Shown: positions 23,726 to 33,430 of the stretch, piece by piece
Layout: each line of letters begins with the position of its first letter
Position numbering within the stretch: position 1 is the first letter of the stretch
Source: Pontibacter anaerobius
Lineage (GTDB): Bacteria > Bacteroidota > Bacteroidia > Cytophagales > Hymenobacteraceae
Direction: 5' to 3'
DNA length: 64,000 bases
Assembly: GCF_026241195.1 (NCBI RefSeq)
Contig: NZ_JAPFQO010000001.1
Span: forward strand, 682,001 to 746,000
Translations under genes and position numbers: made by a program
The notes under the pieces: model-generated
Seen by the model: only the letters and a program-made list of their open reading frames with translations
Databases searched by the model: none
What the model was told of the DNA's origin: nothing

Positions 23726-24706
23726 CTAAGGTAACAGCTGATTTTGCAGGGCTTCGGTTTCGCTGCTTACATCAATATTGTACTGCTGCTCCATGGCTTG
23801 CAGCTGTTGCAGGGTGTTTCGCAGAAACTTCTGGTGTGCCTCGGTGTGTGGGTGGAACGGCCTGTGGGACACAGCCCGTTGTATTTTCTCCCACTTGCCT
23901 ATAAATTGCCGGAAGTCCGCAGTATAGTATGCCTCTACAAACTTCTGCCAGATATACGCTTCGGCCAGCGGCGTAGGGTGCAGCATGTCCTCTTTATAGT
24001 AACGGTAGTCGCGCAGGTCATCCATCATGATCTCGTAAGCAGGGAAGTATAAAACCTGTGGATGGGCTACCTGCAACTGATGGCACAGCAAACGCAGGCT
24101 GGCCTTGCTCACGCTGTTCATCTCGATCGACTCTTTAATGTGCCGCACCGGGCTAACCGTCAGTAGTATTTTCAGGGATGGGTTTACCTGCTTAAGTTGC
24201 GTCAGCATCTGCTCAAATGCGGCTGACATTTCCTCCATCGTGAGCAGCACGCGCTTAAAATTAGCGGCAGGTAGCTTATGGCAGTTGGCCACTACCTTGC
24301 CGCTGTCCTGTAAACGGTAGGCTATGGCCGTGCCCAGTGTCACGATCAGGAGTGAAGCGTTCTTTAACTGCTCTCCTGTTTGGTGCAAACGCTGCTGTAT
24401 ACTTTGCAGGAGCTCCTCTTTGCTCGTGCTGGAGAGGGAGGAGTGGAGGTCGTAAGCGTACCAAATGCCATTATGCTGCACCAGGTGCTCCTCAAAAGTA
24501 TAAGGCCGGCCAGCGGCAGCCTGCAGCAGCATGCTTACAGAGATGGGGTTGAAGATCGTGCCGAAGGGGTTCACCTGTACATCCACCTTGTGCTGCTGTA
24601 GCTTGCTGCCGATAACATCTGCAAAGCAGGAGCCAATGGTCAGCACCTTGTGCTGCAGGGTAAGGTCAAGGCCAGAGCGGGGTACCTGTACTTCAGTCCG
24701 GAACAT
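23726..24706 (-). CDS. GSCFA-domain protein
   Basis: 326 aa. GSCFAD near residues 27-32 is the namesake motif of the GSCFA family (PF08885), a branch related to SGNH/GDSL hydrolases, with the serine in block I. TLGTA (about 120) and the late DMLHPTPLAEAYIW segment supply further conserved blocks, the DxxH being the likely catalytic Asp/His pair. The substrate is unknown; an esterase or acyltransferase role on surface glycans is a guess from the superfamily. It lies downstream of the ribosomal operon terminator and on the same strand. Confidence 0.85.
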   Translation of the reverse strand: MFRTEVQVPRSGLDLTLQHKVLTIGSCFADVIGSKLQQHKVDVQVNPFGTIFNPISVSMLLQAAAGRPYTFEEHLVQHNGIWYAYDLHSSLSSTSKEELLQSIQQRLHQTGEQLKNASLLIVTLGTAIAYRLQDSGKVVANCHKLPAANFKRVLLTMEEMSAAFEQMLTQLKQVNPSLKILLTVSPVRHIKESIEMNSVSKASLRLLCHQLQVAHPQVLYFPAYEIMMDDLRDYRYYKEDMLHPTPLAEAYIWQKFVEAYYTADFRQFIGKWEKIQRAVSHRPFHPHTEAHQKFLRNTLQQLQAMEQQYNIDVSSETEALQNQLLP

Positions 24707-24755
24707 AGCGCGGTAGAGTTTAGCTAGGAGGATATACGTGCAATATGGCGAAAAA

Positions 24756-24786
24756 AAAGCGTCCTGCCGGTAAGGCAGGACGCTTT
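24756..24786 (-). terminator. Terminator of the rpsF-rpsR-rplI operon
   Basis: A perfect 13-bp stem (24756-24768 with 24774-24786), 5-base loop, and an 8-base T-run on the minus strand, 24 bases after the rplI stop. Confidence 0.92.
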
Positions 24787-24809
24787 AGTAGTAGTCTTTT
24801 CGGATATGC

Positions 24810-25253
24810 TTATTCAGCAACTACCTTGAAGTTAACCTGGTGCTTCACTTCTTTGTGCAGGTTCAGTGTAGCAGTGTAATCACCGGCTGTTTTCACGTCC
24901 TGGTCAAAAGAAATACGCTTACGGTCTACATCAAATCCTTTCGCCTTCAGGGCCTCAGAAAGTTGGTTAGTAGTTACAGAACCGAAGATCTTACCAGTCT
25001 CACCCACTTTAGCAGGAAGCTCAAGCGTGATGTCACCAATGCTGTTAGCCAGCTCCTGTGCATCGTTCTGGATCTTCTCAGCCTTGTGTGCAGCCTGACG
25101 GATGTTTTCAGCTACAACTTTTCTGCTTGATTTGTCAGCAATAACTGCCAGACCCTGTGGGATCAGGTAGTTACGGCCGTAACCTGGCTTTACTTCAACA
25201 ATATCGTTCTTGTAGCCGAGGCCTTTAACGTCGTCTTTAAGTATTACTTCCAT
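24810..25253 (-). CDS. rplI: 50S ribosomal protein bL9
   Basis: 147 aa, full length. The N-terminal rRNA-binding domain has the conserved DVKGLGYKNDIVEVKPGYGRN pattern and YLIPQGLA; a long connecting helix and the C-terminal domain follow (GKIFGSVT, KHQVNFKVVAE). It is the third gene of the rpsF-rpsR-rplI operon, 12 bases after rpsR. The start is fixed by a very strong Shine-Dalgarno sequence (TAAGGAGGT, 7 bases from the ATG), unusual in this phylum. Confidence 0.97.
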   Translation of the reverse strand: MEVILKDDVKGLGYKNDIVEVKPGYGRNYLIPQGLAVIADKSSRKVVAENIRQAAHKAEKIQNDAQELANSIGDITLELPAKVGETGKIFGSVTTNQLSEALKAKGFDVDRKRISFDQDVKTAGDYTATLNLHKEVKHQVNFKVVAE

Positions 25254-25259
25254 CGTTCG

Positions 25260-25268
25260 ACCTCCTTA
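25260..25268 (-). promoter_or_regulatory. Strong Shine-Dalgarno sequence before rplI
   Basis: TAAGGAGGT on the minus strand ends 6 bases before the rplI ATG and is complementary to the canonical 16S 3' end. Most genes in the window have no such site. Confidence 0.85.
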
Positions 25269-25517
25269 TTTTAAAGAATCCGTTACATAAGGTAAAATGG
25301 CAAGGTGTCTTGCACGGGCAACAGCCTGAGACACTTTGCGCTGGAACTTCAGGCTTGTGCCAGTAAGTCTTCTAGGAAGGATCTTACCCTGCTCGTTCAC
25401 GAACTTCAGCAGGAAGTTACCATCTTTATAGTCGATATACTTGATACCGCTCTTCTTGAAACGGCAGTATTTCTGACGGTTTTCTTGTTTGTGTACTCTT
25501 TCGTTAACTAAGCTCAT
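25266..25517 (-). CDS. rpsR: 30S ribosomal protein bS18
   Basis: 83 aa. Typical bS18: [16 protein letters not shown], the [18 protein letters not shown] core, and [20 protein letters not shown]. It binds bS6 on the 30S platform. The ATG overlaps the rpsF stop (TAATG), so the two genes are translationally coupled. GAGGAGG lies 10 bases upstream, inside the end of rpsF. Structures of Flavobacterium ribosomes place bS18, with bS6 and bS21, at the pocket holding the 16S 3' tail, which makes an SD before this gene a candidate regulatory signal. Confidence 0.97.
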
Positions 25518-25885
25518 TATCCTTTAACCTCCTCTTTTTTAGCTTGTGATTTGAACTCGCCGTTTCTTCTGCGCTCGTTGTAAGCCACAGCGTGCTTGTC
25601 AAGGGCAGTTGTTAAGAAACGAACTACTTTTTCATCACGGCGATAGGTCAGCTCCAGAGCGTCAACTACGTTAGTAGGCGCTTTGAATTCGATCAGGTGA
25701 TAGAAACCTGTAGACTTCTTTTGGATTGGATAAGCCAGTTTGCGAAGACCCCAGTTCTCTTCATGAATAATGTCGGCGCCATTTTCCTTTAGCACCTCTC
25801 TGAACTTCTCGACCGTTTCCTGCATCTGCACCTCGTTCAACAGAGGCGTCAGGATGAAGACAGTTTCGTAATTTCTCAATTCCAT
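25517..25885 (-). CDS. rpsF: 30S ribosomal protein bS6
   Basis: 122 aa. It starts with [14 protein letters not shown], contains [23 protein letters not shown], and ends with a basic tail. It is the first gene of the operon and the partner of bS18 on the platform. Unlike rpsR and rplI it has no SD; the leader before the ATG is A/T-rich. A good sigma-AB-type promoter lies 32 bases upstream. Confidence 0.97.
25528..25534 (-). promoter_or_regulatory. Shine-Dalgarno-like sequence before rpsR
   Basis: GAGGAGG on the minus strand, inside the last codons of rpsF and 10 bases before the rpsR ATG. A second AAGGA lies too close to the start to act as a normal SD. Confidence 0.7.
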
Positions 25886-25916
25886 CGGTTCGATTTATGG
25901 TTATAATTTTAGCCTG

Positions 25917-25947
25917 CAAAGGTAAGGCGCTTATTTATAAATAGCAA
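25917..25947 (-). promoter_or_regulatory. Bacteroidota-type promoter for rpsF operon
   Basis: Minus strand: TTG (25947-25945), 20-base spacer, TACCTTTG (25924-25917). This matches the TTG / TAnnTTTG pattern of the primary sigma factor in Bacteroidota and predicts a leader of about 25 bases. Confidence 0.8.
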
Positions 25948-26412
25948 TAGAGGAGGAGATAATTAAGCGAAAGCCAATGCTGCTTGTGTGAGTAACAGGT
26001 ATGACGGAGGTATGGCTACACCTTATTATATATAGGTGTGAAAAATCTTGGTAGAGCTTCTGCAAAAACAAATAGGAGAAGATCCTGAAAGTAAATAATA
26101 GGACAATTTATACTTTGGTAAGTGCAAATTAAACAAACATAAAATTGGATTGTAACGTTTGGTGTTAAAGATGGAAATTGTATCATTATTTATATATAGC
26201 TTAAAAGGTGGTAGAAGCGATGTTATTTAGAATCGATTTAAATAAAATCGCTTAAATTGCATTAGAAATGGGTTTTTGGTAGCAGGTAGCTGTGTAAAGA
26301 GGTGGTGGTGCAGCTGAGGCCAAATAATAAACTTATTCTGTTTGAATAATGGAATTCGCATAGTAGATTTGTGCCCGTAAAGTAAATTCACCATATCATA
26401 TACTAAACACAA
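25948..26412. other. Divergent AT-rich spacer between rpsF and the respiratory operon
   Basis: About 465 bases without a gene, ending at the actA start. It contains the actA promoter at 26341-26371 and AT-rich sequence of no recognised content. TATACTT words occur near 26109 and, just inside actA, near 26440. Confidence 0.6.
26341..26371 (+). promoter_or_regulatory. Bacteroidota-type promoter for the ACIII/cox operon
   Basis: TTTG (26341-26344), 19-base spacer, TAGATTTG (26364-26371), 41 bases before the actA ATG. It matches the TTTG / TAnnTTTG consensus and is the only good promoter I see before the 16-kb operon. Confidence 0.8.
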
Positions 26413-30793: not shown

Positions 30794-32224
30794 ATGCAGC
30801 ATGTATCTCCGATAAGAGAGCCTCTTGTAACGGGGGGGAAAACATACCACGACATCACCGAAGATGTCTGCAGACAAGTGGAGGCCAAGCCCAACGCACG
30901 TTGGGCCGCTGCCCTTGCCGTTGCACTGGTAGGCTTAGCTATATTTATCTACTCTGTATACCGCACGCTTTGGTATGGTATAGGGGAGTGGGGCCTTAAC
31001 AAAACAGTAGGTTGGGCATGGGACATCACCAACTTCGTGTGGTGGGTAGGTATCGGTCACGCTGGTACGCTGATCTCCGCCATCCTCCTGCTGTTCCGTC
31101 AGAAGTGGAGAACTTCGATTAACCGCGCAGCAGAGGCGATGACGATCTTCGCCGTGATTTGCGCCGCGATGTTCCCGGTTCTGCACATGGGCCGTCCGTG
31201 GCTGGCTTACTGGGTACTTCCGTTGCCAAACACATTCGGTTCGCTTTGGGTTAACTTTAACTCGCCGCTTCTTTGGGATGTATTTGCGATCTCAACTTAC
31301 TTCTCGGTATCACTGGTTTTCTGGTACATCGGTCTTATTCCTGACTTTGCTACCATCCGTGACCGCGCGACAGGACCAATTGCAAGAAGAGCTTACGCTT
31401 TCCTTTCATTCGGTTGGACTGGTTCCGCTAAAGCATGGTCTCGTTACGAGACAGTTTCCCTTATACTTGCCGGTTTAGCAACACCACTGGTACTTTCGGT
31501 TCACACGATCGTATCCATGGACTTTGCAACGTCCGTGATCCCGGGCTGGCACACAACCATTTTCCCTCCATACTTCGTGGCAGGTGCGATCTTCTCAGGT
31601 TTCGCAATGGTACTTACCCTGATGATCATCACCAGAAAAGTATTCTTCCTGGAGAACTACATCACACTGGAGCACGTGGAGTCGATGAACAAGGTAATCA
31701 TCCTGACGGGTTCGATTGTAGGTATTGCCTATACTACAGAGTTCTTCATCGCCTGGTACTCAGGAGTAGAGTATGAGCAGTACGCATTCATTAACCGTGC
31801 TTTCGGTCCTTACTGGTGGGCTTACTGGTCGATGATGACTTGTAACGTGATTACGCCACAGCTTTTCTGGTTCAGAAAAATCAGAAGAAGCTTAACAGCC
31901 ACATTCATCATCTCCATCTTCGTGAACATTGGTATGTGGTTCGAGCGTTTCGTTATTATCGTAACCTCCCTACACAGAGACTTCCTGCCTTCTTCCTGGG
32001 CAATGTTCTCGCCAACCATCATCGACATTGGTGTATACGTTGGTACCATCGGACTTTTCTTTACACTGTTCCTGCTGTTTGCGAAGTTTTTCCCAGTAGT
32101 GAACATGGCCGAGGTGAAGGCTATCCTGAAGTCCTCTTCAGAAGTGAAACACCACCATGGCGCAGCTGCAACTATGCATGCTACTGACAAGGATTTGAAC
32201 TCTAATACACATCGCAATGAATAA
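30794..32224 (+). CDS. actC: Alternative complex III quinol-binding membrane subunit ActC (NrfD-like)
   Basis: 476 aa, about ten transmembrane helices of the NrfD/PsrC type. Conserved segments include [20 protein letters not shown] and [13 protein letters not shown], as in NrfD-family proteins. ActC is the quinol-oxidising membrane subunit. The C-terminal tail is soluble and His-rich. The last 8 bases overlap the actD start, implying translational coupling. Confidence 0.92.
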
Positions 32225-32741
32225 GAAGTTTGTTCTAGGTATTTATGATGATGAAGATGTGCTGTTAACAGCCATCGAGAATATCCGCGCAGCCGGAACT
32301 AAGATTTATGACGTGTTTTCTCCTTATCCTGTACACGGCATCGATGATGTGTTAGGTATCAAGCGATCAAGACTCCCGATTGTAGCTTTCTTTGGAGGTT
32401 TATTCGGTATGTCGTTCGCGTTGTGGATGCAGATCTGGATGATGGGCTTCGACTGGCCGATGATTATCGGTGGTAAGCCACACATCGCACTTCCGTCATT
32501 CATCCCGGTAACTTTCGAGTTGACCGTACTTGTTAGTGCATTCAGCATGGTAATCACCTTCTTCATCGTTTCGAAGTTGAAGCCGTCACTGAAAGTGAAT
32601 GTGTTTGATAAGCGCTCTACAGACGACAAATTTGTGATGGCAATAGAAGTAAAGGACGGCGTAACCAACATGACTGCCCTAAACGACCTGCTGCGCTCTA
32701 ACGGTGCTATAGAAGTTAATGAGAAGGAGGTAGTAAAATAA
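32217..32741 (+). CDS. actD: Alternative complex III subunit ActD (DUF3341)
   Basis: 174 aa. A short cytoplasmic N-terminus ([20 protein letters not shown]) and two transmembrane helices in the middle, the DUF3341 layout. [17 protein letters not shown] is characteristic. It is a structural subunit packed against ActC/ActF. The start overlaps actC by 8 bases and the stop overlaps actE by 1 base. Confidence 0.92.
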
Positions 32742-33430
32742 TGAAAAGACTTATAAACACAGGCTTTAAGGCCTCAGCTATACTTTTCTCTGCTGCAATT
32801 CTCATTTCCTGCAGCAATGAGCAAGACCCAGGGCTGGAGTATGCTCCGGACATGTACCATTCTGTTCCGCTGGATCCTTATTCACAGATCAAGGAAAATA
32901 AATTTAACCCGGCCGGAATGAACATGCGCGAACCTGCTAAAGGTACGGTAGCGCGTGGCAAGGAAGGGTATAACTTATACTTGTCTGAAGATAACGCTGA
33001 AGCGGCAGGTGCGGAGTTGAAGAACCCGCTAGCTAGAACCACAGAAAACCTGGAAGAAGGTAAAGTGCTGTATAGCCGCTTCTGTGCACCTTGCCATGGT
33101 GCAGAAGGTGACGGGCAGGGGCTGGTTGGACAAAAATTCAAAGGTGTTCCTTCTTACACAGCAGGACGCGTAGCGGAGTTGCCAGGCGGCCACATTTTCC
33201 ATGTGATAACCTATGGTAGAGGCCGAATGATGCCGCACGGCTCACAGGTTGACCCAACTGAACGATGGAAGATAGTGATGTACGTACAGCAGCTCCAGAA
33301 AGGGGAGACTGGCACAGCCGTGTCTGCCGGTTCAGAGGCTGCGAATGAAGCTGGCGGAGAGTCTGTAACAGACAATCCGGTAACTGGAACTCCAGAGGGT
33401 ACACCTAACAAGGAAACTCCTAAAAACTAA
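32741..33430 (+). CDS. actE: Alternative complex III monoheme cytochrome c lipoprotein ActE
   Basis: 229 aa. The lipoprotein signal ends LISC (lipidated Cys about residue 24). The c-type heme site CAPCH is at about residue 118, with an axial Met candidate in GRGRMMPHGS (about 162). The C-terminus is a low-complexity Gly/Glu/Thr/Pro tail. It carries electrons at the periplasmic face of ACIII. The ATG overlaps the actD stop (TAATGA). Confidence 0.92.
   Translation: MKRLINTGFKASAILFSAAILISCSNEQDPGLEYAPDMYHSVPLDPYSQIKENKFNPAGMNMREPAKGTVARGKEGYNLYLSEDNAEAAGAELKNPLARTTENLEEGKVLYSRFCAPCHGAEGDGQGLVGQKFKGVPSYTAGRVAELPGGHIFHVITYGRGRMMPHGSQVDPTERWKIVMYVQQLQKGETGTAVSAGSEAANEAGGESVTDNPVTGTPEGTPNKETPKN

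Follow-up and report, generated by a model that had tools for sequence, protein, structure and literature searches.

Strong Shine-Dalgarno sequences before rpsR and rplI in Pontibacter anaerobius resemble hand-over sites from one gene to the adjoining one more than a bS18 feedback switch

Results

The rpsF-rpsR-rplI operon

The window analysed in this study is a 64,000-nucleotide stretch of the Pontibacter anaerobius genome (contig NZ_JAPFQO010000001.1, positions 682,001 to 746,000). The ribosomal protein genes rpsF, rpsR and rplI form an operon on its minus strand (Table 1). The GGAGG core of the rpsR Shine-Dalgarno (SD) sequence (25532–25528) lies 10 nt 5′ of the ATG, and that of the rplI SD (25265–25261) lies 7 nt 5′ of the ATG. 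Only one copy of the 16S rRNA tail was found in this genome; it is canonical and ends in GGATCACCTCCTTTCT. Duplex energies against this tail were calculated with ViennaRNA, and their scale differs from that of McNutt 2023; for rplI, the narrower window of the genome-wide sample described below gave −12.3 kcal/mol. The original prediction had placed GAGGAGG inside rpsF before rpsR and TAAGGAGGT just before the rplI ATG, with no SD at rpsF, and the calculated energies bear it out at all three genes.

The element TACCTTTG, located upstream of rpsF, is presumably a −7-like promoter element of the Bacteroidota type. Regulation through S6:S18 leader RNAs is known from other phyla. An Rfam search of positions 24700–26200 (E up to 1) returned two weak, unrelated matches, and Rfam may have no model of the S6:S18 leader.

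Table 1. Features of the window discussed in the text, with duplex energies against the canonical 16S tail (ViennaRNA)
Feature	Position	Strand	Basis	Duplex (kcal/mol)
rpsF (bS6), operon gene 1, without SD	25517..25885	-	NCBIfam S6	-0.8
rpsR (bS18), ATG overlapping rpsF stop (TAATG)	25266..25517	-	NCBIfam S18	
rplI (bL9), start 12 nt past rpsR stop	24810..25253	-	NCBIfam L9	
rpsR SD GAGGAGG, within rpsF	25528..25534	-	duplex; genus-conserved	-13.5
rplI SD TAAGGAGGT, includes rpsR stop codon TAA	25260..25268	-	duplex	-13.2
TAATG stop-start overlap, rpsF/rpsR	25515..25519	-	sequence	
TACCTTTG element, 31 nt 5′ of rpsF ATG	25917..25924	-	sequence; motif presumed	
Terminator-like hairpin 3′ of rplI	24756..24786	-	sequence	
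actD (alternative complex III)	32217..32741	+	Pfam PF11821	
actE, cytochrome c subunit, ATG overlapping actD stop	32741..33430	+	Pfam cytochrome c; name presumed	
actE SD AAGGAGGT, GGAGG core within actD	32726..32730	+	duplex	-14.0

SD sequences in an SD-depleted genome

We sampled 864 kb of the same genome, in which 659 genes were called blind to the SD; the calls include an SD-blind gap-filling pass, added because rpsR and actE were lacking from the initial set. Duplexes of −6 or stronger were found at 48 genes, against a mean of 83 in mock windows. The genome is therefore SD-depleted, which agrees with the original prediction that most other genes lack an SD. The rpsR and rplI SDs rank second and fifth in strength in this sample.

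The strongest SD (rank 1, also located in the window) precedes a gene that we take to be actE from the gene order. This SD and its TAATG overlap are kept in all 25 genomes of the genus. Within the last 60 codons of actD, 33 degenerate codons encode an invariant amino acid; only AAG GAG is fixed among them, and these codons form the SD. The actE SD was absent from all five genomes examined outside the genus. The trmD and recR genes of P. anaerobius also have SDs comparable in strength to those of rpsR and rplI. Within the genus, the trmD SD is present in 15 of 16 genomes in which the gene overlaps its upstream neighbour or follows it by 2 nt or less, and in none of the 8 with a gap of 11–17 nt. 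These 8 of 24 genus genomes form one clade and represent a single event on the tree. Outside the genus, the trmD SD was absent from all six genomes examined. A strong SD outside any junction was also observed, before a DUF2267 gene (L270:6809-7243, minus strand; AAAGGAGGTAGCTATG; −13.1) that has no same-strand gene before it.

Conservation and selection of the rpsR and rplI SDs

The original prediction called for a survey of conservation in related genera. Both SDs are kept in 25/25 genomes of the genus, P. anaerobius included, and the rpsF/rpsR gap is −1 in 24 of them and −4 in the other. Across 75 genera of the order Cytophagales, an SD of −9 or better was found at rpsR in 38, at rplI in 6 and at rpsF in none; this survey gave 79 genomes with an rpsR match, nine of which were left out.

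The end of bS6 is rich in Lys and Glu, and the rpsR SD could be a by-product of codons that read AGGAGG. GGAGG indeed occurs in a single frame (xxG GAG Gxx) in 31/31 occurrences. However, synonymous reshuffling of the rpsF end yields an SD in 9.8 ± 2.5 of 50 genera, against 33 observed, and the rplI SD is noncoding apart from the rpsR stop codon. The by-product explanation is thus barely credible. Codon usage within the genus gives a similar picture: among the 23 of 25 genomes whose rpsF genes are equally long, rpsF has 92 degenerate codons for invariant amino acids, of which 35 are represented by a single codon, and the SD-bearing codons 115–121 are all among the 35. Taken together, the two SDs are genuine and conserved, and they are under selection at the nucleotide level.

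Alternatively, the SD could be ancestral and persist through inertia or because it simply enhances de novo initiation, neither coupling nor feedback being involved. The presence of the SD changes at least 21 times on a tree of 96 rows, it is missing in 37/75 genera of the order, and three genera of the same family as P. anaerobius (L052, L055 and L063) lack it at both rpsR and rplI; these points would suit such a relic. However, it would have to be reconciled with the nucleotide-level selection seen in both order and genus, with the SD depletion of starts as a whole, and with work on Prevotella bryantii, in which adding or removing an SD did not appreciably change reporter yield (PMC3155529). 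We consider it improbable. The genomes of the three SD-less genera (G393, G070 and G310) have canonical 16S ends.

In Cytophagales, an rplI SD occurs only where rpsR has one (6/38 vs 0/37, p 0.025), and the corresponding pairs fall short of significance on the tree. The distribution in Bacteroidales is different. Twenty-nine of 31 genomes gave an rpsR match and 27 were analysed, since L360 is a fragment and L166 (Alistipes sp. dk3624), which has no rpsR SD, was examined apart. In the 27 genomes, the SD is present at rplI in 21 and at rpsR in 17, and 8 genomes have the rplI SD alone.

Gap length and junction position

The SDs follow the distance to the upstream stop codon. The rpsR SD is present in 54 of 83 cases with a gap of 17 nt or less and in 0 of 13 beyond, and the rplI SD in 26 of 41 with a gap of 11–25 nt and in 0 of 60 otherwise; the cut-offs were picked post hoc, and that for rpsR was 13 before two Bacteroidales with gaps of 14 and 17 led us to widen it to 17. 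The gap table leaves out five of the 75 Cytophagales genera with uncertain starts, none of which has the SD, and one of the 27 Bacteroidales genomes, which has no rpsF in reach. On the tree, about 2.3 pairs for and 0 against the gap effect were obtained for rpsR (5 supported independent pairs) and about 2.6 for and 0 against for rplI (7 supported independent pairs); neither is significant. In the order, 22 of 60 rpsR genes with a gap of 13 nt or less have no SD. Therefore, coupling, if any, can do without it.

We compared SDs of −11 or stronger at same-strand gaps of up to 30 nt (junctions) with those at all other starts. In P. anaerobius, 6/125 junctions have such an SD, against 3/496 other starts (p 0.003); with rpsR and rplI removed, the difference is 4/123 vs 3/496 (p 0.03). 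Genome G143 gave 4/78 vs 0/141 (p 0.015). No junction excess at this threshold was found in G138 (0/51 vs 0/219), though its rpsR has an SD, or in G070 (0/29 vs 1/219), a member of the same family as P. anaerobius whose rpsR has none. The four genomes pooled gave 10/283 vs 4/1075, and 8/281 vs 4/1075 without rpsR and rplI (p 0.0007). The latter excess is modest when mock windows of these genes serve as the reference (8/281 vs 9/843, p 0.046).

rpsU and the question of bS18 specificity

The original prediction proposed a feedback loop in which ribosomes lacking bS18 have a free anti-SD (ASD) and favour translation of rpsR. It was modelled on the SD-dependent autoregulation of rpsU in Flavobacterium, which published work confirms (PMC9976891). 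We found an rpsU match in 80 genomes and counted the 61 with both genes: 11 have an SD at both rpsR and rpsU, 28 at rpsR only, 6 at rpsU only and 16 at neither, so that the two SDs are independent. The rpsU SD of P. anaerobius is weak (−9.5), and the four genus genomes examined gave −9.5, −6.9, −6.6 and −2.6. In other genera, extended rpsU SDs reach −15 to −21, compared with −13.5 for rpsR (all ViennaRNA values, which differ in scale from those of McNutt). The bS21 of P. anaerobius has a Tyr at position 54, the residue said to stack on the 16S tail (PMC9976891).

In its broader form, the feedback explanation holds that 30S subunits without bS18 or bS21 have a free tail, favour rpsR through its SD and thereby replenish the missing protein. 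Such feedback has been proposed for rpsR and demonstrated for rpsU in F. johnsoniae, and reporters with AGGAGGU respond to the truncation or depletion of bS21 (PMC9976891). The rpsR SD is also the most widely kept of the operon in Cytophagales, the rplI SD occurs there only alongside it, and rpsR could substitute for rpsU in this genus, where the rpsU SD is weak. However, the regulation of rpsU needs an extended SD (PMC9976891). Specificity for bS18 is further in doubt because the rpsR and rpsU SDs are independent; because rpsF, whose product bS6 belongs to the same 16S-tail pocket, has no SD in 75 genera; because rplI, whose product is not named as a pocket member, has a comparable SD, as do the non-pocket genes actE, trmD and recR; because the SD accompanies short or overlapping gaps and is absent from long-gap rpsR; and because it is commoner at rplI than at rpsR in Bacteroidales. 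Thus, the SDs and their selection stand, as does the published feedback idea for rpsR, and the restriction of the loop to bS18 does not stand well. We regard feedback as the main role of these SDs as unlikely, if less so than their being ancestral relics.

Lineages with an altered anti-SD

We searched for covariation between the SD and the ASD. In Cytophagales, a 16S end was obtained from 60 of 390 genomes, and G365 (Fibrisoma; its rpsR has the same position as in the genome of the Fibrisoma limi locus) alone departed from CCUCC, with UCUCC in both copies. It was again the sole UCUCC case in its family, where 28 of 222 genomes yielded such an end. Scanning named genomes for the UCUCC core returned 33 stretches (L122–L154), many of them from Bacteroidota records, including Fibrisoma limi, five Brumimicrobium species, Alistipes sp. 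dk3624 and several MAGs. Two of the 33 came from Glaciecola amylolytica, which we take to lie outside the phylum Bacteroidota. The search for rpsR covered 30 of the 33 stretches, without the Glaciecola pair and the second Fibrisoma stretch. It corresponded to 29 genomes, 27 of which had an rpsR match and were all examined, with a weak second Fibrisoma match (L182) excluded.

In 25 of the 27, rpsR pairs more weakly than −6 with either tail, the exceptions being Fibrisoma and MAG 37-13; several of the rpsR starts in this set are uncertain, as their N-termini differ from the query. Two Fibrisoma genomes (G365 and G358, the latter without a 16S match) have GGAGAGG at rpsR, whereas the corresponding sequence in G335, from the same family, is GGGGAGG. 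This change at first looked compensatory, but GGAGAGG pairs equally with both ASDs (−8.0) and so speaks neither for nor against covariation. MAG 37-13 keeps AGGAGG at rpsR despite its UCUCC ASD, and Alistipes dk3624, with the same ASD, keeps GGAGG at rplI. With two lineages retaining the canonical motif and Fibrisoma neutral, SD–ASD covariation is not supported.

Discussion

According to McNutt 2023, citing Jha 2021 (PMC9976891), rpsR is often preceded by a strong SD in Bacteroidales, Cytophagales and Sphingobacteriales, and such SDs also occur at rplI and other ribosomal genes. Autoregulation by bS21 and/or bS18 was raised in the same paper. Therefore, the rpsR and rplI SDs and the idea of bS18 feedback are already published, and the present locus is a further case of that pattern. 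It shares both features of the published class, namely complementarity to the 16S tail and a canonical tail in an SD-poor genome.

At rpsR and rplI, the SDs resemble hand-over sites from one gene to the adjoining one more closely than they do a feedback switch dedicated to bS18. Both junctions combine a close stop and start with an SD near the end of the upstream gene (TAATG at rpsR and 12 nt at rplI), the arrangement of SD-assisted termination-reinitiation. We propose that the two SDs act as operon-junction signals that aid reinitiation by terminating ribosomes, an explanation that we hold to be about evenly poised between right and wrong. A ribosome terminating on rpsF would pause beside the rpsR start codon that overlaps the rpsF stop. 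The adjacent SD on its 5′ side would pair with the 16S tail of the paused ribosome and hold it, leading to reinitiation at rpsR, and the same hand-over would take place from rpsR to rplI. This would link the output of bS18 to that of bS6, which lies next to it in the ribosome. Masking of the tail on free subunits may explain why de novo starts avoid SDs. A ribosome that has already engaged the mRNA may be able to free the masked tail, as has been suggested for prfB of F. johnsoniae, where a pause is hypothesised to release the 16S tail from the platform (PMC8710568).

Coupling at junctions and feedback are mutually compatible. Release of the ASD through loss of bS21 or bS18 is a possible modifier of the junction SDs: such a loss may strengthen the junction effect, and translation of rpsR and rplI may well increase when pocket proteins are scarce. 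In published reporters, AGGAGGU gave a more than twofold rise when bS21 lost its C-terminus, and a response was also seen on depletion (PMC9976891).

A wider scheme can be drawn for Cytophagales and Bacteroidales, in which SD pairing is reserved for ribosomes on the mRNA, at close junctions and at the prfB pause, and free subunits start without it. The SDs of rpsR, rplI, actE and trmD would then form one junction class, with rpsU as a monocistronic exception. We offer this scheme tentatively and consider it somewhat doubtful. If true, it would contradict the position that SDs play no part in reinitiation in Bacteroidota. Such a position was taken by Huber 2019, who found SDs at about 10% of overlapping gene pairs in Bacteroidetes and, because the share was so low, concluded that they are unused for reinitiation (PMC6728339). 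The minority share of junctions with an SD in our genomes agrees with that figure, and our results suggest selection on some of these SDs. Among the open-access literature matches listed, as far as their available text extends, there was no report of Bacteroidota SDs that form a junction class.

The Bacteroidota retain an intact ASD that their own ribosomes hide, and the junction explanation bears on why they do so. If the remaining SDs are hand-over points, the phylum naturally separates the use of SDs in reinitiation from their use in de novo initiation.

Comparison with known systems

The closest known system is the strong rpsR/rplI SD class of Bacteroidia (Jha 2021, via PMC9976891), with which our locus shares the genes, the orders and the idea of bS18 autoregulation. 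What we add is the relation of these SDs to the length of the gap, to codon constraint and to the junctions of actE and trmD.

Released-ASD feedback was demonstrated for rpsU of F. johnsoniae, which likewise has an SD before the gene of a 16S-tail-pocket protein (PMC9976891). However, rpsU is transcribed alone and has an SD of 9–13 bp, whereas rpsR is internal to its operon, overlaps the preceding gene and has a shorter SD; the rpsU SD of P. anaerobius itself is weak. The extended SD required for rpsU regulation, below −13 in the authors' scale, also distinguishes its control from that of other SD genes (PMC9976891).

SD-assisted termination-reinitiation is the third comparison. Bacteroidetes were called non-users of this mechanism (Huber 2019, PMC6728339), whereas a minority of the junctions studied here have an SD.

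In P. anaerobius, a frameshift site, AGGAGGTACCTTTGAC, with a perfect SD-like AGGAGGT was found at L421 (G000:C1:483684-483699), in a gene that we take to be prfB from its two frames. The frameshifting of prfB in Bacteroidia has in common with the proposed junction mechanism an SD recognised by a ribosome that has already engaged the mRNA (PMC8710568). The outcome differs: prfB undergoes a frameshift, whereas reinitiation is proposed for the rpsR and rplI junctions.
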